Position numbers and translations under genes: made by a program. Below, in pieces: positions 4,497 to 59,341 of a DNA stretch of 64,000 bases. The stretch's first letter is position 1. Each line of letters starts with the position of its first letter. The notes under the pieces were generated by a model. It saw only the letters and a list, made by a program, of their open reading frames with translations, made no database searches and was not told the DNA's origin. The stretch comes from Prostheceraeus crozeri (Eukaryota; Platyhelminthes; Polycladida; Euryleptidae), in contig CAJQUW010008721.1 of NCBI GenBank assembly GCA_907163375.1, positions 310,001 through 374,000 of the forward strand, given 5' to 3'.

Positions 4497-7124
4497 TCGA
4501 CTGTGTTTTTCAGGTTCCCAATTTTTCTTCTCCTGAATGCGCGCTCAATTGCAACTCCCGGAAAAATTGACGAACTTAGACTTTCTTGTGCTTCCCATAA
4601 ACCCGATATTGTAATTGTTACAGAATCCTGGCTCAACGAAACCCACGAAGATTGTCTTTTTCATGTTCCTGGCTATAATATTTTTAGATGTGATCGAGTC
4701 AATCATCGGGGTGGAGGTGTTGCTACTTGGATTAGCTCCTCCTTGAATGTTCGGCGCCTTTTTGCTGAAATAAATTTTTATGAAATTGTTTGCTTGCATA
4801 TAAAGCACAGTAACACCAATTATTTTTTGGCTGCTATTTACATTCCTCCACATTTGAATAGTGAAGAATTGTTGTCAATTTCAGAATCACTCATTGATAT
4901 TATTGATGAAGTTTTAAACGATTTTCCTGACGTGCACATAATCATAGCTGGTGATTTGAATCATTTTGATTGCGCGTATCTAAAGAATGTTTTTGATTTA
5001 TGTGATAAGGTTGTCACTCCTACTCGCGGTGATGCTATTCTCGACAAGTTCTTGGTTAGTCGGTCTTTAGACATGTACTATCCCAATGCGACTGTAGGTT
5101 CGCCCTTATCTTTACATCGCAGAGGCTCACATTGTCAAGTGTTGTTAAAGCCATTACATGGAGATGTAATACAGGACTTTCAGAGAGAACACTTTGTATA
5201 TGATACACGTAAAAGATATGTTTTTGATTTTTTGACCAAACTCAAAGATTGCTCCTTTCATGATTTGTATCTTGAAAATGATTTAGATAAGAAAACAAAT
5301 TTGTTCTATTCTAAATTTTCTGATTGTCTATCTGTCATCCCTTGTAAAGTTGTGTCTATGTCATCACGTGACAAACCGTGGATGACCCCATTTTTGAAGG
5401 ACCTCATTAACAAAAGATGGTCAGCTTTTCGCAACAAAGATTTCCTATCATACAATTTTTACAAGGAAAAGTGCAAGGTTGAAATAGCCAATTGTAAGAG
5501 CAGATGGGTGCAAAGATCTATAAATTCAAGCCGCAGAGTGTGGAACATCGTTAATGATTTGAAGGGAAAATGTACTAACGATCCGCTGAGATCAATCATT
5601 TCCAACTTTCCGGACCTTGAATCAGCTGCGAATGCAATTAACGAAATATTTGCCGAATCTTTTACACAGACGGATTTCTCATATGAATACGCAGACGACA
5701 ACTGGTGTCCATTGACTGAGCCTCATGATGTTTTCAATTTTTTAGAGAAGCTATCTGTCACCAAAGCAACTGGTTCCGATGGTATACCAAATCGTTTTTA
5801 CAAGCTTGCATCTCCGTATATTTCTGAGCCTCTGTGTAATTTGATAAATTGTTCTATCATTCAACGTAAAGTACCATCTGTTTTCAAATATTGTGTCGTA
5901 TCTCCTGTTCCTAAGAATTCTCCGCCTAGTATTGATCAACTTCGTCCAATCAATTTGTTAAGTGCACCAGCCAAAATGTTGGAGTCTCATATTTTGAGTG
6001 TAATGCGGGATAAGTTTGAAACCAATATCCCATGTTTCCAATTTGCTTATAAGAAGTTTTCTGATACAAATTGTTGTCTTGTTTCTATGCACAATGCCAT
6101 TACAGAAATTTTGGATCGCACAGACACTGGTGCGTGTATGGTGTTAAACTATGATTTTTCTAAGGCGTTTGATAGAATTTGCCACAAAACATTAGTAGAG
6201 AAGCTGTGCAAACTTTGTTATCCAGCTGGTTTTATTAAATGGCTCTGTTCTTATTTGACCGACCGTTTTCAATGTGTCAAGCTGGGTAGTACTTTTAGTT
6301 ATCCAGTCGCTGTTACAAGTGGTGCCCCACAGGGTTCTTTGTTAGGGCCATTTCTATTTGTCTTGTATTGTAGCGACATCAAACCATTGTCATCAAAAAC
6401 TTATATTTCGATGTATGCTGACGATATTTGTGAGATTTGTCCGATTTCCAAGTTCGAAAGTGACAATTCCATTGAGCTTTTGCTATCAGAATTTTATAAT
6501 ATAAAGATGTGGTCTTCTTCAAATAATCTACTATTGAATGAGACGAAAACTAAGGCTCTATGTATCGGTAAGAAGTGTTTCGACGTGTATTCCCCTTTTC
6601 CTTTCCCAATGGTCACAGAAATGAAGATCTTGGGTGTTACATGGTGTGACAGTTTGAGTTGGAGCATTCATTTTCGTAATGTGTTCAAAATTTGTTCAAG
6701 GCGTTTGTACATGATTAGAATACTTAAACGTTTGCTAAACCATGATGATCTGTGGATTGTTTTTAACAGCGTTGCACGTAGTATTGTTATGTACTGTTCT
6801 TCCTTATTTGGCATTCTAAACGCGGAAATTGTTCAGAAAATCGAAAGACTTTTTAAGCGTGCGAGAAAGATTATTTGTATGCCCAACTGTAAATGCAACA
6901 ACAATGCCGCTAACTTTCATCAAAAACGTCTCCTAAGTTTCAAGACCTTCTTCGAAAAGTGCCAGTTGACAAATCATCCACTACATTCAATCGTTTCTCA
7001 CCCACGAAATGGAAGGCTGACAGTCCCTTACTGCAGAACGACTTTGCGACAGAACTGTTATGTGATAATGTCAATTTTAGTTATGAATAACCTCACTGAT
7101 CTCACATGTGCCATTCCTTATTGA
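4497..7124 (+). CDS. LINE ORF2: APE endonuclease plus reverse transcriptase
   Basis: One open frame of about 875 codons encodes an APE-type endonuclease followed by reverse transcriptase, the enzyme pair that nicks target DNA and primes cDNA synthesis. The endonuclease (about residues 10-210) shows LLNARSI, VTESWLN, RGGGVATW and AGDLNH. The last block, which should contain an S-D-H triad, reads GSHCQVL, so the catalytic aspartate appears lost. The RT (about residues 420-700) shows LRPINLLS, YDFSKAFDR, SGAPQGSLLGP and the active-site box MYADD. A C-terminal tail follows (ILGVTWCDSLSW, KIERLFKRARK). No ATG opens the frame: the nearest in-frame stop is at 4494-4496 and the first residues match the start of the nuclease, so the 5' end is probably truncated or mutated. 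It belongs to the CR1/Jockey-like assemblage; I cannot fix the clade. Confidence 0.88.
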   Translation, partial: STVFFRFPIFLLLNARSIATPGKIDELRLSCASHKPDIVIVTESWLNETHEDCLFHVPGYNIFRCDRVNHRGGGVATWISSSLNVRRLFAEINFYEIVCLHIKHSNTNYFLAAIYIPPHLNSEELLSISESLIDIIDEVLNDFPDVHIIIAGDLNHFDCAYLKNVFDLCDKVVTPTRGDAILDKFLVSRSLDMYYPNATVGSPLSLHRRGSHCQVLLKPLHGDVIQDFQREHFVYDTRKRYVFDFLTKLKDCSFHDLYLENDLDKKTNLFYSKFSDCLSVIPCKVVSMSSRDKPWMTPFLKDLINKRWSAFRNKDFLSYNFYKEKCKVEIANCKSRWVQRSINSSRRVWNIVNDLKGKCTNDPLRSIISNFPDLESAANAINEIFAESFTQTDFSYEYADDNWCPLTEPHDVFNFLEKLSVTKATGSDGIPNRFYKLASPYISEPLCNLINCSIIQRKVPSVFKYCVVSPVPKNSPPSIDQLRPINLLSAPAKMLESHILSVMRDKFETNIPCFQFAYKKFSDTNCCLVSMHNAITEILDRTDTGACMVLNYDFSKAFDRICHKTLVEKLCKLCYPAGFIKWLCSYLTDRFQCVKLGSTFSYPVAVTSGAPQGSLLGPFLFVLYCSDIKPLSSKTYISMYADDICEICPISKFESDNSIELLLSEFYNIKMWSSSNNLLLNETKTKALCIGKKCFDVYSPFPFPMVTEMKILGVTWCDSLSWSIHFRNVFKICSRRLYMIRILKRLLNHDDLWIVFNSVARSIVMYCSSLFGILNAEIVQKIERLFKRARKIICMPNCKCNNNAANFHQKRLLSFKTFFEKCQLTNHPLHSIVSHPRNGRLTVPYCRTTLRQNCYVIMSILVMNNLTDLTCAIPY

Positions 7125-28671: not shown

Positions 28672-30439
28672 CAGCTATGGACAAAAGTCACCGGACACTT
28701 GATATTTTTTCATTTTACTCTGTTATTTCGATGTGTAATGTAAACTCGTCATCTTTTATTGGAGAAACACAATATAATACACAGATAACCATAGTCATAT
28801 GATGTAGTCAATGAAGCTGACGTCTTATCCCTATTTAGAGGGCATAATAGCGCAAATGTTCGAATTGGACAAAAGTCACCGGACACCTTATACTTCATAG
28901 TTTTTTACTTGCAAATTGCCTTAATAAGCACAGAGACGAACAGTTAAGTCAGATATCTATGATGGGAAGCTTTCTGAATCATTTCACATTCACTTGCCTT
29001 GTGTTAAGCAGGCAGCCTTGAATCGGCAGATTTGAAATTCAAATTCAAATGCTGTGACTCACTGTTGTTTCCGATATTCACCTGAAGACTGACGCTATGC
29101 TATCATTTTTATCACACACTCGCATCTCATCGGTCGCAATTTGCTTGACATCTCAATCTGGAAGATGAGGAAAGAAGTATCGCCGAAGAAGAGATCAGAG
29201 ATCATAACTCTCGTGAAGGAGGGATATAGTGTTCGGAAGGTGTCCCAGAAGACCGGTGTTCCCAAATCGACGGTATCAGACATACGGCGACGTTGGCAAA
29301 AGAATCCTTCCGGTTGCGGGTCACATAAGAAGAAAAGGACTGGCCGTCCATGTAAAACAAGTGAAAGACTTGACCGTCAAATTGTTCGCATGTGTTAAAC
29401 TAACCGTTTCTTGTCAGCAAGGATGATTCGAGCATCTCTTGGTCCTATGGGAGCTTCCTTCACTGACCGCACCCTCAGTCGACGACTGCGTGCTGCAGGC
29501 TTCTATGCCAGAAGACCTGCTAGAAAACCCTTCGTAAATGCTTTGCAACGACGACGCCGTGTGATATTCGCAACTAAGTATTCGCAAAAGTCAATGGACT
29601 ATTGGGAACGGACTTTATGCTCCGATGAGTCTTCATTTGATTTATTTGGCAATCGGGGAGTGACTACAGTCCGACGACGCACTGGTGAGCGCTTTGACCC
29701 GAGATGCACGATGGCGACGATGAAGCACCCCACAAGCATGATGGTTTGGGATGCTTCTCATTCAATGGTGTGGACGACTTCGAGTGTTGGAGAATGGACA
29801 AAGAGTGAACCAAAAGTGTATCTGGACATTCTGAATCACGAAATGCAGCAAAATCTTGCCGTGCAGTTCCCCGATGGTCACGCTGTATTTCAGGATGACA
29901 ATGCCCCCTGCCACCGAGCAAAGACGGTCAAGGAATGGCTCTCAAGTTCGGAATTTGATCATATCAACGACTGGCCAGGGCAAAGTCCCGATATAAACCC
30001 AATTGAAAATTTGTGGACGGAAGTTGGTCGAGTGATAAACGAAAGAGCTCCAACTACGCGAAGTGGAATCATCGCATCAATAATTCATGCATGGTACCAT
30101 GTTATAACCCCAGAAAAGTGTCAGCAGCTGATCATGAGCATGCCACGCCGCTTGAATATTTGTGATTCGTGCAAAGGATTTCCTACAAAATACTAAAAAA
30201 TTATGTTTTTTGATCAAAAATCACCCGATTTTAGGTGTCCAGTCACTTTTGTCTAAAACGAGAATCTGGAATAAATAGACATCAAAAACGAGAAAATTGT
30301 TTTTCAACACTTTCTGTATAAAAAGGAAACATATTTAGGCTAATTAGATGTATTAAACTGTATCACAATATTTTCTTGTAGACAATAGAAAGAATCTTAG
30401 CAAAAAGCTTTGCTGTCCGGTGACTTTTGTCCATAGCTG
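28672..30439 (+). mobile_element. Tc1-like DD35E transposon with IR/DR ends
   Basis: The outer ends are CAGCTATGGACAAAAGTCAC at 28672 and its complement ending at 30439, flanked by TA (28670-28671, 30440-30441). A second copy of the core GGACAAAAGTCACCGGACAC lies about 190 bp inside the left end (28867), and a slightly altered complement (GGTGTCCAGTCACTTTTGTC) lies near 30235-30254. Four transposase-binding-like sites in this arrangement are the IR/DR structure known from Sleeping Beauty and relatives. Total length is 1768 bp. Confidence 0.92.
29165..30196 (+). pseudogene. Tc1-like transposase, one internal stop
   Basis: A single frame of 344 codons runs from ATG 29165 to the stop at 30194-30196, interrupted only by a TAA at 29396-29398. 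Residues 1-80 form the paired-like helix-turn-helix region (VRKVSQKTGVPKSTVSDIRR, then a TGRPCKTSERLD hook). The catalytic core has LCSDESSFDLF, FQDDNAPCHRAK and SPDINPIENLW. I count 35 residues between the second aspartate and the glutamate, so DD35E rather than the commoner DD34E. The end MSMPRRLNICDSCKG is a normal Tc1 C terminus. Apart from the one nonsense codon the gene looks whole, so the insertion is fairly young. Confidence 0.92.
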
Positions 30440-39281: not shown

Positions 39282-39540
39282 CAAGGTTGGGCAGAAAAGT
39301 TGGGTTTTGACCCCAATTTTTTCCACAAACTTGGTTCTGAAGCCCAAGACCCAAGCACAAGGTTAAAATAAGATATTCTTGAGTTGGAAAGAGCCAGGAA
39401 TTTTTTAGATGTCAATTATTATTATGAGTTATGATGTACAAAATTTTACGATTACCATCCAGTAATCATCTTCATGTACAAGGTTAAAAAACCTAAGCTT
39501 TGAAACCCAAGTTTAATAAATCTGCTCTCTCGTTGCAGTC
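39282..39540. mobile_element. degenerate CAAGGTTGGG-type element
   Basis: It starts ACAAGGTTGGGC and contains CTTGGTTCTGAAGCCCAAG and AAACCCAAG, the same word set as the 922-bp element at 21503. It is interrupted by the short Penelope piece at 39369-39477. The ends are too eroded to define. Confidence 0.5.
39369..39477 (-). mobile_element. 109-bp Penelope 3' end with 12-bp TSD
   Basis: The sequence matches the 3' end of the Penelope element near 27650-27745, including the stem-loop. It is flanked by an exact 12-bp repeat ACAAGGTTAAAA (39357-39368 and 39478-39489). This looks like a strongly 5'-truncated insertion into the CAAGG-type element. Confidence 0.7.
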
Positions 39541-39711
39541 AGTTGTCAGTCAGTTCTCCCGTTGCAGGTATTCTTACTCCTATCAGTAGCAAACGAAGAG
39601 CAGATTACGCATGTTATGATGCACATTTACCGTATTAAACTTATCATTGAGATCAAGGTATTTTAAGAAAAAATTACAATTGCACAAATTTGGTATTACG
39701 AATTTTTTCAG
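39541..39711. other. short spacer
   Basis: Contains a CAGTCAGTTGTCAGTCAGTT simple repeat near 39537-39556. Nothing else seen. Confidence 0.4.
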
Positions 39712-40624
39712 TTTTCTGAAGTCAGAATGTGAGTTTCGATAAGCCAACATGACAGAGACAAAATGAGAAAATTAGAATATTGGGATGGTGGACTTTAATT
39801 TGGACAGGTCGATGGAAGTAAAAATGATAAATAGTGGTGTATTATGATGTAATTTAGAGCAACAGGAAGAACGACTTGTGAGTAACTTTTTTGGTGAAAA
39901 CTGTTATGATATTTGTTTTTGTGCTAGGTTAATATTTTGATTATCTCATTTTGTTAGTCACGGTGTCACGGAGATGGCGGTTTCATTTTTGAAATTTCCT
40001 AAATGATTTTTCAACGCTAACCCATGTAATTTGACCCTAGATTACGATTTTGATGGTTAAAAAATCATCGATCGAGGGTTTTTTGAGAAAAATGCAAAAA
40101 TTCAAAATGGCGGACTCTGAAATCGAAACTGCGCTCTACATGTACACACTTCCATATCAATTTCCTAAGGAATTTCTCCATGCATACCCATGTAATTTAA
40201 CCTCTAGATTACGATTTTGATAGTAAGAAAATCATTGATCGAGGGCTTTTTGAGAAAAACGCAAAAATTCAAAATGGCGGACTCTGAAAATTCCATATCA
40301 ATTTCCTAAAGGATTTCTCAGTACATTCACATGGCTATCACAATTAACAATTTCATCTCCGTATTGCATATTAGAAAATTAAAAGATTATATATATTTTT
40401 TCCGACAAACTTGCGACAGAAAGTTTCGTACCGGTATAACAGATTACAAAAGTAAATTATTTTGTAATTCCCGAGGCGCGTAAATTTACCGTTTAAAATA
40501 GTTTTACCAATCTATGCTATACGCTATGGAACTGTGCATGTTACTCTTGCATAGGCATATTGAATGAAGAAAACAGCTTAATTTCCAAATGGCTATAATA
40601 CCAAACAACACTTATCAACAACTT

Positions 40625-42539
40625 CTACAAATGCCTAGCATTGTAGGCTCGCACTGTTGCAAGAAATCTTCCAGGAAAGTTGGGATTGCTGGTGTCTTTC
40701 ACCTTGTAATTTTCCTGAAAGAATCAAAATTGGAATGTAGGGTCTCGCTTACCTGCTCACTGTACATTCCCAAGCCTTGGTGCTTAGAGAAACAGAATTC
40801 CGGCACATGATGAAATATACAGTGTAACTTGGGTGTAATGGGAATGTTCAATGCCAATACATCATCGCGGAATTTCTCTATGAAATCGCAAAATCTGCTG
40901 TCCAAATTTTTCACGAAGCAGGCATTGACTACGTTGTTCAAGCTGTGGAAAGCTGACACAAATGGCAATGCATCCAATGTTGCAATCGCACTCAATTTAT
41001 CCACATTTCTCAGAAGGCTGCGTGCGGCATTCCCATTGAACGTGCCTCCATGATACTGATCTTTTTTTATGTGGCATTGAGCCAACCACTCAGTCGCGAT
41101 TTCTGGAGCTGCATTTTCCAAAGTGCTAAATATCTTAGCCACCGATCCGATCATGAGATGTAGTTCAGGGGGAGGAACTACATCCAGAATAAGTTCTTTC
41201 GACTCTCCTGTCACGATTGATGGGTGCATGACATTGCCATAATTTTTTGCTCGCGACTTTTCCTCTTGGGAATCAAAGTATGACCAGAACAGCTTTGATA
41301 GGTTTTCCCATGTCCTACTTGCACCGACATTCAACAAATCTCGTTTGTGTGCATTACACCACGGACATGGATGGGAACTTCCGCTGCTCATTAATCCTAG
41401 CAATAGGTTGCACACTTTCATGTCTGCAGAAATCATGAACTTCGTGGTCAATTTGTTCACACCAACTGCATGCCACAAATATTTAAAATTTGGGTAGCAC
41501 TCGATGATGTCAGGTCCTATTGCGACGATGAAGATATCATTGATTCCACAAACTTTGCTAGATTGAGCGCCAGAGGCACAATCATTCTCAACCAATTGTA
41601 GGTTAATCTTCAGAAATCCCTTGCATTGTCATTACCAATCTTTGCAAAATGGTCTGAGTCAATCTGTTTTCGTATTATAAAATCGTCAATGAATGTCTGA
41701 ACATCGGTACAAATGACAACAGGCATAGTAACACGATCCTGTTTAGCATCGAAGCAGTCAATGGTGCGATATTCAAAATGTTCATCAAGTATGTGATCTT
41801 TCATACGTAATTTTTCGCGGACACTGTACTCCACAGAGTTTCTCCCGGATGCTCCATGGATTTTTCTGGTGAAGTTGTACGTCTGTCGGCCACTAAGGCC
41901 TAAATCTCTCTGTATTTCAGCAACATTGTCAAGCGATAGCTGACGCTCGGGAGTTTTGATGCTTACACTTAGAGTGCCACTCTTCATTGTTTGAATTTTA
42001 GATGAGCTTCGCATTTTATAGCCATATCTTGATGATAGAGTTGATGCAGAAAAGCGTTCTGGTTCGTTAGGGGACTGTGTTGATATTAACTCAGTCAAAT
42101 GGCCAAATTTCTTGGCCTTAGAGCACGAATGTGATTAAAATTCCTCTACCAATTTGGCAAAAACATTTGGCACAGACTTTTACATGAAGATTGTCGGGCT
42201 CGGCAGAGCCTTTCGGCTTCGAAAAAGGCCTGCCCGCAGGAGCTTTCAACGTCGACTGTTTTTGATTTATCGAGGTTCTTGTCATTTCACAAATGCTGCA
42301 GTCACAAACAGTAGTGCTCCTTTGACGAGTACTTGGCGGAAAGATGAGCTGGTCTCTGTCAAACATGAACAAATTACGGTTGGATATAATCCATCAATCC
42401 GGTTATAGTTCGGATAAATATTTGTCTTTATAGAATTTTCGATCGCCGATGATACATTTTGCAGACTTCCATTCTTACAAAAACAAATTGTGCACAGCGC
42501 TTTCAGTGATTCAGCATGAGTTCTCGATGTATGCGGCAT
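40625..42539 (-). pseudogene. RAG1/Transib/CMC-like transposase, frameshifted
   Basis: From ATG 42539 the N-terminal part has zinc-finger-like cysteine pairs (LCTICFCKNG; then in another frame CDCSICEMTR and VKVCAKCFCQIGRG). The next frame (42098-41610) has SGRQTYNFTRKIHGASGR and KIGNDNARDF. A shift leads to the core (41595-40699): HPCPWCNAHKRDLL (CxxC), VVPPPELHLMIGSVAKIF, GGTFNGNAARSLL, KLHCIFHHVPEF (HxxxxH) and GMYSEQVSE. After one more shift comes VKDTSNPNFPGRFLATVRAY and a stop at 40625-40627. This motif order matches the RNase-H-fold core of RAG1 and Transib/CMC transposases. The position where RAG1 has its second aspartate is not acidic here, so the catalytic triad is not resolved. At least three frameshifts. 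Confidence 0.72.
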
Positions 42540-42689
42540 GCTTCAGGTTAGTTGAATGATTGCACTGCACCCTTTCTTCTCGATTGTATATTCCCTGCCA
42601 CACATCGATCGTAAACGCACCACGCTTGATTGCGCGAACGCTTAATTACTCGCTGCAGATCATGCGAAGCACACACATCACGCATAGAG

Positions 42690-42902
42690 ACCTAGCTGTT
42701 TCACGTGATTCGTCGCTATGTGGCTACCAAGTAAACAATAGTTATAGCGGATGCATGTATTGGTGTCTTGATGAAGACGTGCCTCAGATCCTTGCCTTAG
42801 ACTGTCTAACAACGGCAATCAAGACAGGGATACATGCATTCCCTATCGTACTATTGTATACTCGGTCGCCACGCAGCAACGAATCATGTGACATAGCTAG
42901 GT
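42690..42902. repeat. imperfect inverted repeat upstream of the transposase
   Basis: ACCTAGCTGTTTCACGTGAT at 42690 pairs with the complement ending at 42902 (ACCTAGCTATGTCACATGAT). Arms of about 88 bp continue through GAATGCATGTAT-type sequence to ATCAAGACA. It lies between the transposase start and the right inverted repeat, so it could hold the promoter or be a nested foldback. Confidence 0.75.
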
Positions 42903-43721
42903 CGCCCTGCATACAGTTTTGATGATGGCGGATGAAACCAATGTGTGCAAAGTAAACAATCATTTGCACAATAGAGTGTACTTGACACTGAATAATTCGT
43001 TCATATGAAGGCCTACAATTACATGTATAACCCCACATGTGTATGTAGAATTTCCATGCCCTGCGTTTTTCTCAAAAAGCCCTCGATCAATGATTTTCTT
43101 ACTATCAAAATCGTAATCTAGAGGTCAAATTACATGGGTATGCATGGAGAAATCCCTTAGGAAACTGATATGGAAGTGTGTAGAGCGCAGTTTCGATTTC
43201 AGAGTCCGCCATTTTGAATTTTTGCATTTTTCTCAAAAAGCCTCGATCGATGATTTTTAACCATCAAAATCGTAATCTAGGGGTCAAATTTCATGGGTAT
43301 GCATAGAGAAATTCCTTAGGAAATTGATATGGAAGTTCGTAGAACACAGTTTCGATTTCAGAGTCCGCCATTTTGAATTTTTGCATTTTTCTCAAAAAGC
43401 CCTAGATGAATGATTTTTTAACCATCAAAATCGTAACCTGGGGGTCAAATTTCATGGGTTAGCGCTGAAAAATCATTTTGGAAATTTCAAAAATGAAACC
43501 GCCATCTCCGTGACACCGTGTACTATGATAAGGATTTTTGTGAAAACAGTGAAAGCATAAAAGTTTTTTTACTCAATATTTTAATTGTCTCATTTCTCTG
43601 TTTCATCCTTATTATTTGCATCGACCTGTCCAAATTAAAGTCCACCATCTCAATATTCTAATTTTCTCACTTTGTCTCTCTCATGTTGGCTTGTCGAAAC
43701 TCACATTCTGACTTCAGAAAA

Positions 43722-44150
43722 GTGATTTGAAGATATCTAAATAGCAGTGTGTTGATGCATTGGGATTGATGCAGGATTGATGTCGGTGCTTATCCACATT
43801 GGTCTGATTCCGATAAATCAATGTCAATGTAAAAATCGAATTTGAAAATTCAAATAATCTCTTCTGAGACAAATGTCGAATTCTCTTGTGTAATACATGT
43901 TGTATACACTAAACATGTTGTAGCCAAAGTGACGCAGTGGAAGATTGTAAAAACACTTTACTGGATTTTACACGTAGATATATTTGAATTCATTTACAAT
44001 ATTTGTCATTCAACAGATATATGATTGGTGCATACAAACAACATGTGCCATATGCACATAATCACATGACGCTACCGCGACACTCCCGCCACGACAATAT
44101 CAGGAGGATACTCGTGATACACTCCTGGTGAAGTCAAAATTGTTATGTAA
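43722..44150. other. no gene seen; dispersed repeat at 43912-43990
   Basis: AT-rich. The part at 43912-43990 is the relative of 14207-14290 in intron 1 of the ependymin-like gene. Confidence 0.45.
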
Positions 44151-46967: not shown

Positions 46968-49547
46968 GTGCGATCATTATTCAAGAAGATGGACGATCTG
47001 TACTGTGCTGCCATGAAAACACAAGCGTCAATAATGTGCATAACGGAAACTTGGTTGAACAGCTCTATTCCGGATAGTCTTATCAACATATCGTCTTTTT
47101 CTCTTTTTAGAGCCGATCGTTCAAATCGCGTTGGTGGAGGTGTTTGCATCTATCTAAATGACAGAATAAAGGTTGTCAACTTACAAGCTTCACGACATAG
47201 TTTGAATTTTGAATCTGTGTGGCTCTTCCTTCCTTCACATGGAATACTTTTGAGCTGTATGTATATCCCACCAGCCATCAAAGCGGATGAGATGAGCAAA
47301 TTGCATACTTTTATTGTTGATGCAGTTGACGATTTTCTTGTGAAAGGCTATGGTCCTCATGTCATCCTTGCTGGTGATTTTAATAAACTCAATGTCAACC
47401 GTATTTGTTGTAGTCTTGGTTTATCACAACTCGTTAAGTTACCAACCCGCGGGAGGAACATTCTGGATGGTGTTCTAGTTGATCAGAACATCGCCTCATT
47501 GTATAAGTGCGAAGTTGTGTCTCCAATTAGCTCTTCTGATCATTTTTCACTACTTTGTGAAGCTGTGCATAAGCTTGCATGTCATTGTGTCCCAGTCATT
47601 TCATCAAAGAAAATTCTGGATTTGAGCCCACGTAATATCATGTCATTTGTGTCTGCATTGCAAAGTGTCAACTGGAGTGAATTTTATCACATGTCCTACA
47701 GCATTGATGAAAAATGTCAGATTTTTTATGATATCATTAATCTGTGTGTATCAGAGAACATCCCATTCAAGATGGTTCAATCATCGGTTAATGACAAGCC
47801 TTGGATGACCACTCACATAAAAGAATTGATCAACAAGCGTTGGACTGCTTTCAGATCTGCTGATATGGTTCAGTATGTGAATCTTCGGAACACAGTAAGA
47901 GAGGAGATCAAAAAAGCCAAGTTAAAGTGGGGCAAGAGATCCAAGAACTCTCCCAAGGAATTATGGAAAGTGACGAATGCAGTAATTGGAAGGATGTCAA
48001 GTGATCCTCTGCAAAGCATACTTGTGAACTATGAGACCATTGATGATGCTGCAAATGCCATCAGTTTGCAACTATGTGCTAGCTTCCAAGAAGAAGAGTT
48101 TTCCATGCCCAGCATTGATTCCGAAAATTTTCGTGATCAGTGGAACTTTGACGTAACCGTGGAAGAAGTTGAAAGAGAATTGTCTAGGCTAAACCCTGGT
48201 AAGGCCATTGGATCTGACCTCATTCCAAATACTCTCTATAAGAATGCATTTCTCGAGCTGGCACCTCCTTTGACTCACATTTTCAATGAATGCATCCGAA
48301 AGAGCTATTTTCCACGTGCATGGAAGCATGCCCACATATCCCCCGTTCCGAAAAAAGCCTCTCCAACCATCTGTGACTTGCGACCCATTTCGCTACTACC
48401 AGTACCTGGTGTAATTTTTGAACGCTTTGTTGTTAACTCGCTTCGTGACAGGCTTGAAAATGCAGCCGGTCCCTCGCAGCATGGAGCTAGGAGGCAAGCA
48501 TCTACCACCACGGCCTTGATTTGTCTTCATGATCAGGTGACAAAGTTGTTAGATCTTGACTCTGTGTTAGGTGTTCAATTGTTGATTTATGATCTTGCGA
48601 AAGCATTTGACAAGATAAGCCACAATTTGATTATTAGACGTCTCCTGCAATGTAATTTTCCTCTGGATTTTGTTCAATTTGTAATTTCATATTTGTGTGA
48701 GAGAACCCAAAGTGCTCGAGTTCGCTCTGTCATCAGTGAACCGCAGCGTGTAGTGTCTGGTGTGTCACAAGGTTCTGTGTTAGGACCGCAACTGTTCAAT
48801 TTGGCCATCGGAGATCTTAGACCAGTTTTTCCTTCCACCACCATTGTTCAGTATGTTGATGATGTTACTATCTGTGTACCTATTTACAAAAATAACACTA
48901 CCAAAGGCAATGTATTGCAAGAACACAACAATTTTATGTCATGGGCAAATGCAATGAATCTGAAGGTCAACACTCAGAAATCAAAGTGCATGTATTTTAA
49001 CAAAAGAAATGATTGTACACCTTGTATTGTTCCAGATTGTGAACTTGTCAAAGAGCAGCGTATACTTGGTGTAATTTGGTCGAATGATTTGCGTTGGCAG
49101 CTACATTTTGACCACATTTCTAAGCTTTTTGTCAAAAGATTGCACTGCATTAGAACTCTGAAATGCTTTTTGTGTAAGCCTGATTTGATCACTGTTTATA
49201 ACTGCATGTTGAGATCTTTGCTTGAATATTGTTCTCCTCTCTTTGTTGGCATGCCAAAATATCTGTCTAGTGACCTCAGTAAGTTACAGCGTCGAGCACA
49301 CAGAGTTATCTGCGGTATGGAGTGCGATTCGTCTTGTCTGGAGAACTTGGATGTCAGGAGACTCAGAGCTTCATTGAATCTGTTTGAAAAGTGCTCATCA
49401 CCAACTCATCCCCTGCATGACCTGGTTCCGCTCATCAGCACTCGAAGTGGACGGCCAATTCTATCATTCACAAGCACATCTCAACGACTCAACTCCTTCA
49501 TTGTATATGTGTCCTCTTTGCCGTACAGACATTTTGCTGACTGCTGA
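46968..49547 (+). CDS. LINE ORF2: APE endonuclease and reverse transcriptase, intact
   Basis: The frame is open from before 46968 (first ATG at 46989) to 49547, about 860 codons. The endonuclease blocks are all present: SNVRSL, ITETWL, GGGVCIYL, ILAGDFNKL, LPTRGRNILDGVL and SSSDHFSL, so the metal-binding and catalytic residues look unaltered. RT motifs are CDLRPISLLPVPG, IYDLAKAFDKIS, SGVSQGSVLGPQLF and VQYVDDVTI with the YVDD box. The thumb and C-terminal tail read RILGVIWSNDLRWQLHFD and LSKLQRRAHRVICGM. Residue order and tail match the ORF2 at 4497-7124 but the two are clearly diverged. With ORF1 and 5' region present this is the best candidate in the window for a recently active element. 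Confidence 0.93.
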   Translation: MRSLFKKMDDLYCAAMKTQASIMCITETWLNSSIPDSLINISSFSLFRADRSNRVGGGVCIYLNDRIKVVNLQASRHSLNFESVWLFLPSHGILLSCMYIPPAIKADEMSKLHTFIVDAVDDFLVKGYGPHVILAGDFNKLNVNRICCSLGLSQLVKLPTRGRNILDGVLVDQNIASLYKCEVVSPISSSDHFSLLCEAVHKLACHCVPVISSKKILDLSPRNIMSFVSALQSVNWSEFYHMSYSIDEKCQIFYDIINLCVSENIPFKMVQSSVNDKPWMTTHIKELINKRWTAFRSADMVQYVNLRNTVREEIKKAKLKWGKRSKNSPKELWKVTNAVIGRMSSDPLQSILVNYETIDDAANAISLQLCASFQEEEFSMPSIDSENFRDQWNFDVTVEEVERELSRLNPGKAIGSDLIPNTLYKNAFLELAPPLTHIFNECIRKSYFPRAWKHAHISPVPKKASPTICDLRPISLLPVPGVIFERFVVNSLRDRLENAAGPSQHGARRQASTTTALICLHDQVTKLLDLDSVLGVQLLIYDLAKAFDKISHNLIIRRLLQCNFPLDFVQFVISYLCERTQSARVRSVISEPQRVVSGVSQGSVLGPQLFNLAIGDLRPVFPSTTIVQYVDDVTICVPIYKNNTTKGNVLQEHNNFMSWANAMNLKVNTQKSKCMYFNKRNDCTPCIVPDCELVKEQRILGVIWSNDLRWQLHFDHISKLFVKRLHCIRTLKCFLCKPDLITVYNCMLRSLLEYCSPLFVGMPKYLSSDLSKLQRRAHRVICGMECDSSCLENLDVRRLRASLNLFEKCSSPTHPLHDLVPLISTRSGRPILSFTSTSQRLNSFIVYVSSLPYRHFADC

Positions 49548-50239: not shown

Positions 50240-51553
50240 CGAAGGGTGATTGATAAGTTCGCGGCCTGACATAGAAAGCTTAAAGCCAGGCCATTATGCA
50301 CATGTGGATTGATACAATGGAATGTGCTGACGGCGCATGACGAGTGATCAGTCGATCCGGTGAACTGTTGGTAAGCCATAGCTACTTAACTCCAGTTACT
50401 AACTTATCAGTCAGTTAGTCAGATAAGTGTTGCGTAAGATGGATCACGTTTCAAATGGAGCTGTCATTCGTTATCTCGGCTTGAAAGGACTCACACCAAA
50501 GGAGATTCATGATGATATGGTTGGAACACTTGGTGAGAAAGCTCCGTCCTACACCACAGTCAAGAAGTGGGCTTCAGAATTCAAGCAAGGAAGAGAGAGC
50601 TTGGAAGATGATCCCCGTTGTGGAAGACCAGTGACAGTGAGCACAGAAGATGTGATCGATCATGTTCAAAAGATTATTCTTGATGATCGCCGTACAACCG
50701 AGCGAAAGATTGCCTTCGAACTGAAGATTTCACAAGAGCGTGTCCATAACATCATCCATCATGAACTTGGCATGAACAAAGTTTCCGCTCGATGGGTGCC
50801 ACGACTGCTCACACCAGAGAACAAACGAGCCCGCTTTCTCATCTCAAGGGACAACCTGGCGCTGTTCGTGAGAGATCCTGAAAATTTCATGGACCGGTTC
50901 ATTACGATGGATGAGACTTGGGTTCACCACTATCAGCCAGAGTCGAAAGAACAATCGAACCAATGGAAGCACCCAGGATAACCAACTCCGCGGAAACCCA
51001 AGGTCACCAGGCCCGCTGGAAAGGTCATGGCCTCCATTTTTTGGGATTCGAAGGGAGTTTTGTTGTTGGACTTCCTAGAGACTGGTCGGACAATTACTGG
51101 CGAGTACTATGCTCATTTGTTGCAGCAGTTATGAGTGCAGATCAAGATCAAGCGGAGAGGGAAGCTCACGAAAGGCGTGCTCTTCCATCAAGACAATGCG
51201 CCTGCTCATACCTCCGCTACCGCCATGTCTGCCATCCAAGTTTGTGAGTTTGACATCATTTCCCATCCACCCTATTCTCCTGATCTGGCACCATCGGACT
51301 TTCATCTCTTCCCAAAAATGAAATTGGAGCTCAGTGGTCAGCACTTCGCATCCAACAGTGACGTCATGGAGGCCGTTGAGGAGTATCTGGACTACAAAGA
51401 CTCACACTTCTATGAGCAAGGGATCCGCGCATTGCAGCACCGTTGGGTTAAGTGCGTTGATTGTATGGGCGATTATGTCGAAAAATAAATATGTATCGTA
51501 TGCGAAATATGCTTTTTTCTATATCGGGCCGCGAACTTTTCAATCACCCCTCG
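50240..51553 (+). mobile_element. mariner (DD34D) element inside the DD41D transposase gene
   Basis: The left end CGAAGGGTGATTGATAAGTT and the right end (complement) CGAGGGGTGATTGAAAAGTT are inverted repeats of at least 27 bp that continue into CGCGGCC. TA flanks both sides (50238-50239, 51554-51555). Length is 1314 bp, the usual size for mariner. Excising it and one TA restores the host reading frame (KAKI then YHHGK). Confidence 0.95.
50439..51488 (+). pseudogene. mariner transposase with two internal stops
   Basis: One frame of 350 codons runs from ATG 50439 to the stop at 51486-51488. TAA at 50979-50981 and TGA at 51132-51134 interrupt it, and there is no frameshift. Residues 1-110 form the two helix-turn-helix motifs (HVSNGAVIRYLGLKGLTPKE; SYTTVKKWASEFKQG; CGRPVTVSTED). 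MDETWVHHYQPESK carries the first aspartate, FHQDNAPAHTS the second and YSPDLAPSDFHLF the third. I count 34 residues between the last two, DD34D, as in classical mariner. The HQDNAPAH and SPDLAPSD blocks and the length (Mos1 is about 345 residues) make this a confident call. Confidence 0.93.
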
Positions 51554-57638: not shown

Positions 57639-59341
57639 ATGGCAAGTAGGTATTCGGCGGCAGCAATTGCAGATATCTTGGCAAATGAATCCGACTTTGA
57701 AGAGATTGATGATGAGAATATCGAGCACAGTGACGAAGATGACAATGCATCTTATGAAGAGGAAGAAAGCATCGATGAGACAGAGAGTGAAGAAGATACA
57801 GATATGGACGAAAGAAACTCGAGCGGAGAATTCTACTACGGCAGAGATGGGTCACGTTGGTCTGAGACATCGCCACATTCTTCAGCGTATAGACAAAGAA
57901 ATATCGTGAACGTGCGATCGGGACTGACGGCTCAAACTTATCATTTAGAAGATCAAAAGGACTTTTTTCAAAGTCTGTTTACTCCATCCATGATACAGCA
58001 CATTCGTGAAACGACTGAATGATGATATCCCAGAAATTACCGAGAACGAAATTTGGGGCTTTATCAGCATTCTTCTGATACTCGGAGTGACGAAGAAGAG
58101 AAATGTTATGATACAGGAAGTCTGGAGTCCAACATCTCTCCATTATCAAGAATTTGTGACGCTCATCTTATCGAGAAATCGATTCCAGCAACTTAGCAGG
58201 TATCTAGCTTTCGATGACGTTCATGGACGATGGTCAACGGATTCAAAATTTCGCAAGATGGAGTTCGTGTTTTCCTTATTCCAAGAAAAAGTGCGCAGTG
58301 CATTTGAGCCGGACTCTCACGTAACGATCGATGAAACGCTATATGCTTTTAGAGGCAATTGTTCATTCAGACAGTTCATGCCTTCAAAACCCGCCAGATA
58401 TGGAGTGAAGTATTTTTGTATGTGCGACGTGAAAACTGCATGCCTATGCAACGTTGAGATATATTTGGGGAAAGATCAAACTGAGGAGCGACAAAAAGAT
58501 GTTGGCATGAACGTTGTACTCCGCTTAGTGAAGACAATTGAAGGAACAGGAAGAGGTGTCACGACAGACAACTTCTGTACCGCTATGCGAGAAGTTGTGG
58601 GAGAAAAGACTGACCCTGACTGGCACTCTCAGAAAAAACAAAGCGGCAATTCCGGTACAATTCACGGGCGGAAGAAGACGTGACATTCATTCTAGTTTGT
58701 TCGGGTTTTCGAAAGAAAAACACTCGTTTCCTATGTTCATAAAAAAAGAACAAAACAGTCGTGCTCCTATTAACAGAACATCACAGCAAGAAAGTTATCG
58801 ATGAAAGAGGAGATGGCTTGAAAAAGCCGGAAATAATCCACTCGTACAATGCAACAAAAGGTGGCGTAGACACTTTTGACATGATTATTGCACAATATTC
58901 TTGCCGGAGAAACACCAGAAGGTGGCCGCTGAACATCTTCTTTTTCATGCTCGACTCTGCTGCATACAACGCGTTTGTGTATTTTTCAACCAAGTATCCA
59001 GCCGTATTGGAAGTGAATGGACCAAGACAAAGGCGATTGCATCTCGAGGCTTTGGGAAAGGCCTTGGCTGAAGAACAAATTTCTGATCGTGTTCGAGTTT
59101 GGAAACAAACAAATTCCAAGGTGTTTCATCTCTGTTGAAAAGCACAGCAGAGAAACATGGTTTTCTGAAGGCAGCAACAGCATCAATGATTCAGCAGAAG
59201 ATGCAAGGCCGATGTTACATGTGTCATCGTCAACGTGACCGAAAAAGCCGAAATAAATGTGTGAAATGTTTCAACTTTGTTTGCAGCGAACATGCTGCTC
59301 CAAATTCCGTTTTGTGCTCTTCGTGTCATCGCAATTATTGA
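57639..59341 (+). pseudogene. piggyBac transposase, four frameshifts
   Basis: ATG 57639 opens an acidic N-terminal region (SDFEEIDDENIEHSDEDD), usual for piggyBac. After a shift near 58005 the DDE domain continues: VTIDETLYAFRGNCSFRQF, with the first aspartate, and PSKPARYGVKYFCMCD. GVTTDNFCTAM carries the second aspartate. A shift near 58580 gives LTLTGTLRKNKAAIPVQFTG, another gives NATKGGVDTFDMIIAQYSCR with the third aspartate, then RRWPLNIFFFMLDSAAYNAF. The last frame (59099-59341) has the C-terminal cysteine-rich zinc domain: GRCYMCHRQRDRKSRNKCVK, CFNFVCSEH, LCSSCH. All domains are present in order, so the loss of function is due to small indels. Confidence 0.93.

Follow-up and report, generated by a model that had tools for sequence, protein, structure and literature searches.

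The stretch of DNA analysed here, referred to below as the window, comprises 64,000 nucleotides of the polyclad flatworm Prostheceraeus crozeri (contig CAJQUW010008721.1, positions 310,001 to 374,000) and carries a DNA transposon whose protein recalls RAG1, the enzyme used in building antibodies. The remains of its transposase lie between terminal inverted repeats of 375 bp (left) and 459 bp (right) (Table 1). By its hallmarks and predicted fold, and not by a tree, the element very probably belongs to the Chapaev group of the CMC/CMCT clade. The window copy is dead: its protein, which a sequence-only reading of the window had already described as broken, is split into at least four pieces alternating between two frames, from 42539 to 40699.

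Table 1. Features of the transposon and of its insertion site (positions are those of the window).
Feature	Position	Strand	Basis
Chapaev-type DNA transposon (very probable assignment), non-functional copy, 3562 bp	39959..43520	- (transposase on minus strand)	shared copy boundaries, CACGGTG/CACCGTG ends, 4-bp duplication
Left long terminal inverted repeat; two units at a spacing of 167 bp	39959..40333	+	repeat families D3, D4; inverted pairs I1, I3-I8
Right long terminal inverted repeat; three units at spacings of 159 and 161 bp	43062..43520	-	repeat families D1, D2
Transposase 5' piece, ATG and first Cys cluster (CTICFCK)	42282..42539	-	resembles aligned N-terminal region of other copies
Transposase piece in the alternate frame, with additional Cys clusters (CDCSIC; KVCAKCFCQIGRG)	42118..42372	-	frames and alignment
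Transposase piece with DLGLSGRQTYNFTRKIHG, up to first putative catalytic Asp region	41610..42098	-	frames and alignment
Transposase catalytic piece, 298 aa: second putative Asp (58), CPWC (77-80), PPPELH, NGNAAR, HCIFHH, SEQVSE	40699..41595	-	frames, alignments
Left 4-bp target duplication TAGT, differing from TACT at one base	39955..39958		flanks; loci without the element read TGTTACTATG
Right 4-bp target duplication TACT	43521..43524		flanks and related loci without the element
Outside the element: dispersed repeat, in part as an inverted fragment (39708-39831)	39708..39958	-	among fetched copies, common only to duplicate locus L009
Outside the element: dispersed repeat continuing beyond the insertion	43521..43850	+	alignment to six related element-free loci

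The limits of the element were set by the boundaries common to its genomic copies, 20 of which were fetched for comparison. Copies were searched for in the genome of the window (2.05 Gb in 14,165 contigs), where only the best candidates were scored, so that match counts represent a floor. The sequence-only reading had drawn the outer limits at 39712 and 43721; DNA matches to the other fetched copies span, to within a few bases, only 39959-43520. The outer inverted repeats (39708-39958 and 43521-43725) are common only to L009, which is 98.7% identical to the window over 39501-43900 and, because this identity extends through the flanks, is a duplicate of the whole locus. Of the 51 matches obtained with 39712-39958 as query, 47 lie at loci other than the window's and its duplicate, with identities of 78-94%. 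As related loci without the element carry the outer repeat, the earlier limits mix two repeats, and the outer one is foreign to the element, being part of another dispersed repeat, the target of the insertion. This dispersed repeat (39708-39958 and 43521-43850) is also present at about 30 or more further sites in the genome, and the left outer arm is an extra inverted fragment of it. The inner ends, in turn, had been read correctly: CACGGTG...CACCGTG are the termini of the window element and of most copy ends listed.

Both ends were recognised in 11 sequences, and after omission of L009 as the window duplicate, duplication lengths of 2-8 bp were tried on 10 copies. A perfect 4-bp duplication was found in six of them (L011 AAGT, L012 AGTG, L015 AACT, L017 TTTG, L024 TACA and L028 AAGT) and one with a single mismatch in two (window TAGT/TACT, L026 CCCC/TCCC); a perfect 5-bp repeat was absent from all 10. 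In a second subfamily, all three copies (L050-L052) have perfect 4-bp duplications (CCAA, CACT, AACT). The insertion in the window was compared with six related loci that lack the element, to all of which the window's joined flanks align across the junction. Element-free L044, L045 and L049 read TGTTACTATG and L046 reads TGCTACTATG, whereas the window, with TAGT before and TACT after the element, has 4 bases more; L048 shows an equal net difference of 4 bases, with the gap sited a few bases further left. These five element-free loci, being 4 bases shorter, support a duplication of 4 bp at the window insertion itself. The target duplication of Transib and RAG is 5 bp and that of EnSpm/CACTA 2-3 bp. 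The duplication had been named beforehand as a discriminating feature, 5 bp pointing to Transib/RAG and 2-4 bp to CMC; the 4 bp found fit Chapaev (3-4 bp) and not Transib/RAG.

The catalytic piece of the transposase (41595-40699) reads CPWC, VVPPPELH, NGNAAR, HCIFHH and YSEQVSE in sequence, which is the motif order that had originally suggested a link to RAG1, Transib and CMC. The second catalytic aspartate had been thought not to lie at its RAG1 place, a view that has to be corrected: the Asp of ISADMK (residue 58) sits 19 residues before CPWC (77), the spacing between D708 and C727 of mouse RAG1 (letters verified at both positions) is likewise 19, and the two aspartates share one column in the profile alignment. 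Conservation was assessed across 13 aligned genomic frames (A1), some of which are close relatives and not independent lines. One of the 13, L033, is open throughout its 687 aa, with residue 36 as a plausible start Met, and therefore calls for no intron; its key residues are D352, D422, C441-x2-C444, ELH510, N553, H622-x4-H627 and E648, and D422 again lies 19 residues before C441. D352 is kept in 12 rows (gap in the window frame), D422 in 12 of 13 (R in L020, which is frameshifted at that point) and E648 in 12 (gap in L036), and from this conservation the three are putative DDE catalytic residues. The two-Cys/two-His and LH positions are kept equally well: C441 in 12/13 rows (S in L029), C444, L509, H510 and H622 in 13/13, and H627 in 12/13 (D in L032). 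On sequence grounds, a chance origin of the motifs is excluded by the many genomic copies and by key residues being kept in 12 or 13 of 13 rows. The N-terminal region contains Cys clusters (alignment A2) that resemble the Chapa zinc finger by look.

Searching with the frame 41595-40699 yielded at least 134 scored protein matches, of which 27 (window included) reach 85% identity and the rest lie at 43-82%, many in long open frames. The second-subfamily transposase L030 is about 43% identical to the window frame and has six further full-length matches at 98-99% identity to itself, four of the six without internal stops. In the window's own subfamily, the terminal 79 bp are 100% identical to the window left end in 26 of 40 scored matches (the best 40 of 268 candidates, both ends of some copies being counted). 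These near-identical ends and the L030-like frames indicate that the amplification was probably recent.

Long inverted repeats with internal units of ~170 bp were described at the outset and were recovered here with spacings of 159 and 161 bp on the right and 167 bp on the left. Comparable long ends are present in both subfamilies examined, the likeness shown being one of layout and not of unit sequence. In L050-L052 the terminal units measure ~162 bp and repeatedly contain a perfect palindrome of 24 bp, and the ends are CACGGTGTGTCGG (the right end of L052 is altered). The palindrome lies at L050:1659-1682 and at like places in L051 and L052; in the window element's own ends, no perfect palindrome reaching 12 bp was found. 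The ~160-bp units are probably arrays of transposase-binding sites.

The closest structural alignments of the predicted fold are those to HzTransib, RAG1 and the lancelet RAG-like transposase, HzTransib (PDB 6pqx, 6pqn) being the best VIA-align match of the catalytic region (L033 residues 247-687), and in the profile alignment to mouse RAG1 the second Asp, two Cys, two His and Glu fall on D708, C727/C730, H937/H942 and E962. Both results support the link first drawn from motif order. The RAG1-like RNase-H fold, as modelled, is by motif common to Chapaev and hence not diagnostic of Transib or RAG; likewise, the best PDB match cannot separate Transib from Chapaev, because no structure titled Chapaev appeared in the Foldseek and VIA-align lists.

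The Chapaev superfamily (CMC group) is attributed to Kapitonov and Jurka 2007, as cited in PMC4079192 and PMC4411706. In PMC4411706, Chapaev is a clade of a wider Transib superfamily, and the Chapa zinc finger also occurs in RAG1; in PMC12730594, C(2)C and H(3-4)H unite EnSpm, Mirage, Chapaev, Transib and RAG1, and EnSpm is given a 3-bp duplication and CAC..GTG ends. The element shares with Chapaev the 5'-CAC...GTG-3' ends, the 4-bp duplication, C(2)C, LH, H(4)H, the DDE residues and the Cys-rich N-terminus. Its long inverted repeats, with two and three ~160-bp units, may set it apart from known Chapaevs.

Several observations weigh against the Chapaev assignment. It rests on hallmarks and fold; Pfam gave no match above a cut-off, and sequence searches of PDB gave no RAG1 match. 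HzTransib is outside the first 50 Foldseek rows and turns up only in VIA-align. The model has a mean predicted local distance difference test (pLDDT) score of 58, and the C(2)C stretch falls within a part below 50, so the putative zinc site, whose Cys and His are conserved and aligned to those of RAG1, is modelled with low confidence. The N-terminal model (pLDDT 44) is too poor for a structure search, and the region resembles the RAG1 N-terminus little beyond cysteines: against RAG1 110-239 its score of 20.6 exceeded all 100 plain shuffles (maximum 17.8), but two of 100 shuffles keeping Cys, His and Trp were higher (maximum 25.3), and against RAG1 110-508 (score 20.8) three of 100 shuffles were higher. 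Among the copies, L014 has no duplication, L026 fits 5 bp (4/5) as well as 4 bp (3/4) and is non-discriminating, the flanks of L025 are mirror images (20 bases on each side, exact reverse complements), and some ends are altered (CACCATG at the right ends of L024 and L028). The flanks of L025 (G000:C382) suggest a palindromic assembly artefact or an inverted duplication.

The sequence-only reading had allowed for a separate lineage, and an undescribed line of the CMCT clade with 4-bp duplications would agree with the lack of a named Pfam relative above a cut-off, of an IMG/VR relative by two peptide patterns, and with the ~160-bp units in the long ends of both subfamilies. We nevertheless regard it as improbable: the testable Chapaev hallmarks, the N-terminal zinc finger apart, are all present, so that no new lineage is required. 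Nor do the reasons first given for one stand: the second Asp occupies the place it has in RAG1, and the outermost repeats do not belong to the element. The long, internally repeated ends are real, but alone they do not define a new superfamily.

A Transib or RAG-like element (TransibSU/ProtoRAG) would account for the structural match to HzTransib and for the features shared with RAG1 and BbRAGL (ProtoRAG), namely the fold, the equivalents of D708, C727, C730, H937, H942 and E962, and the LH and GN.AR blocks. However, the element differs from Transib in its 4-bp duplication and its extra Cys-rich N-terminus, and from RAG1/BbRAGL in the duplication and in sequence (10-16% identity in structural alignments). 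The 4-bp duplication is perfect in 6/10 and 3/3 copies and the 5-bp one in 0/10, the hhalign profile match to RAG1 is weak (probability 60), and the genome search found no RAG1-family match, though control queries were equally empty. Nor was a RAG2 partner seen in the window copy, the only one inspected, which has no other open reading frame of 150 aa or more. Such an origin is thus very unlikely. An EnSpm/CACTA or Mirage element, despite the CAC start and the CMC motifs shared according to PMC12730594, deserves hardly any credence, as the duplication is 4 bp and not 2-3 bp, and the ends are CACGG and not CACTA.

The window appears rich in mobile elements. Open reading frames at 4503-7124 and 46968-49547 (+; 873 and 859 aa) are by eye LINE-like, with endonuclease and reverse transcriptase, and among the frames 58006-58683, 29411-30196 and 50427-50981 (all +) one looks piggyBac-like and two Tc1/mariner-like. 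Elsewhere in the genome, L039 (G000:C6227) has COX1 inside 612 consecutive codons without a stop under code 5, which is longer than a usual COX1; chance may account for the excess.

From these results, a mechanism may be proposed for the Chapaev-type element. A single transposase of ~650 residues, intronless in related open frames, would bind the long terminal inverted repeats, recognising the ends through their ~160-bp units, and would cut at the 5'-CAC/GTG-3' ends by a DDE RNase-H-type site with a zinc-binding C(2)C...H(4)H insertion, as fold and conservation suggest. The element would then be joined to staggered cuts 4 bp apart in a cut-and-paste transposition, giving the 4-bp duplications seen in the flanks and against related empty loci. 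The window copy inserted into an older dispersed repeat and decayed afterwards. A bolder idea is that of a recently active, multi-subfamily Chapaev radiation that keeps ~160-bp end units across transposases only ~43% identical, possibly forming a sublineage of Chapaev in its own right, with multi-site end recognition inside the RAG1 clade; we consider it rather doubtful.

Chapaev and the Transib/RAG1 line are distantly related, the CMC/CMCT clade also holding Transib and, through it, RAG1. This kinship is real but already in print, in PMC4411706 and PMC12730594, and the Chapaev group itself is already known. The many near-identical copies and open frames of this genome provide material for asking which features of RAG1, among them the zinc insertion, the spacing of active-site residues and the recognition of ends, predate the RAG branch.
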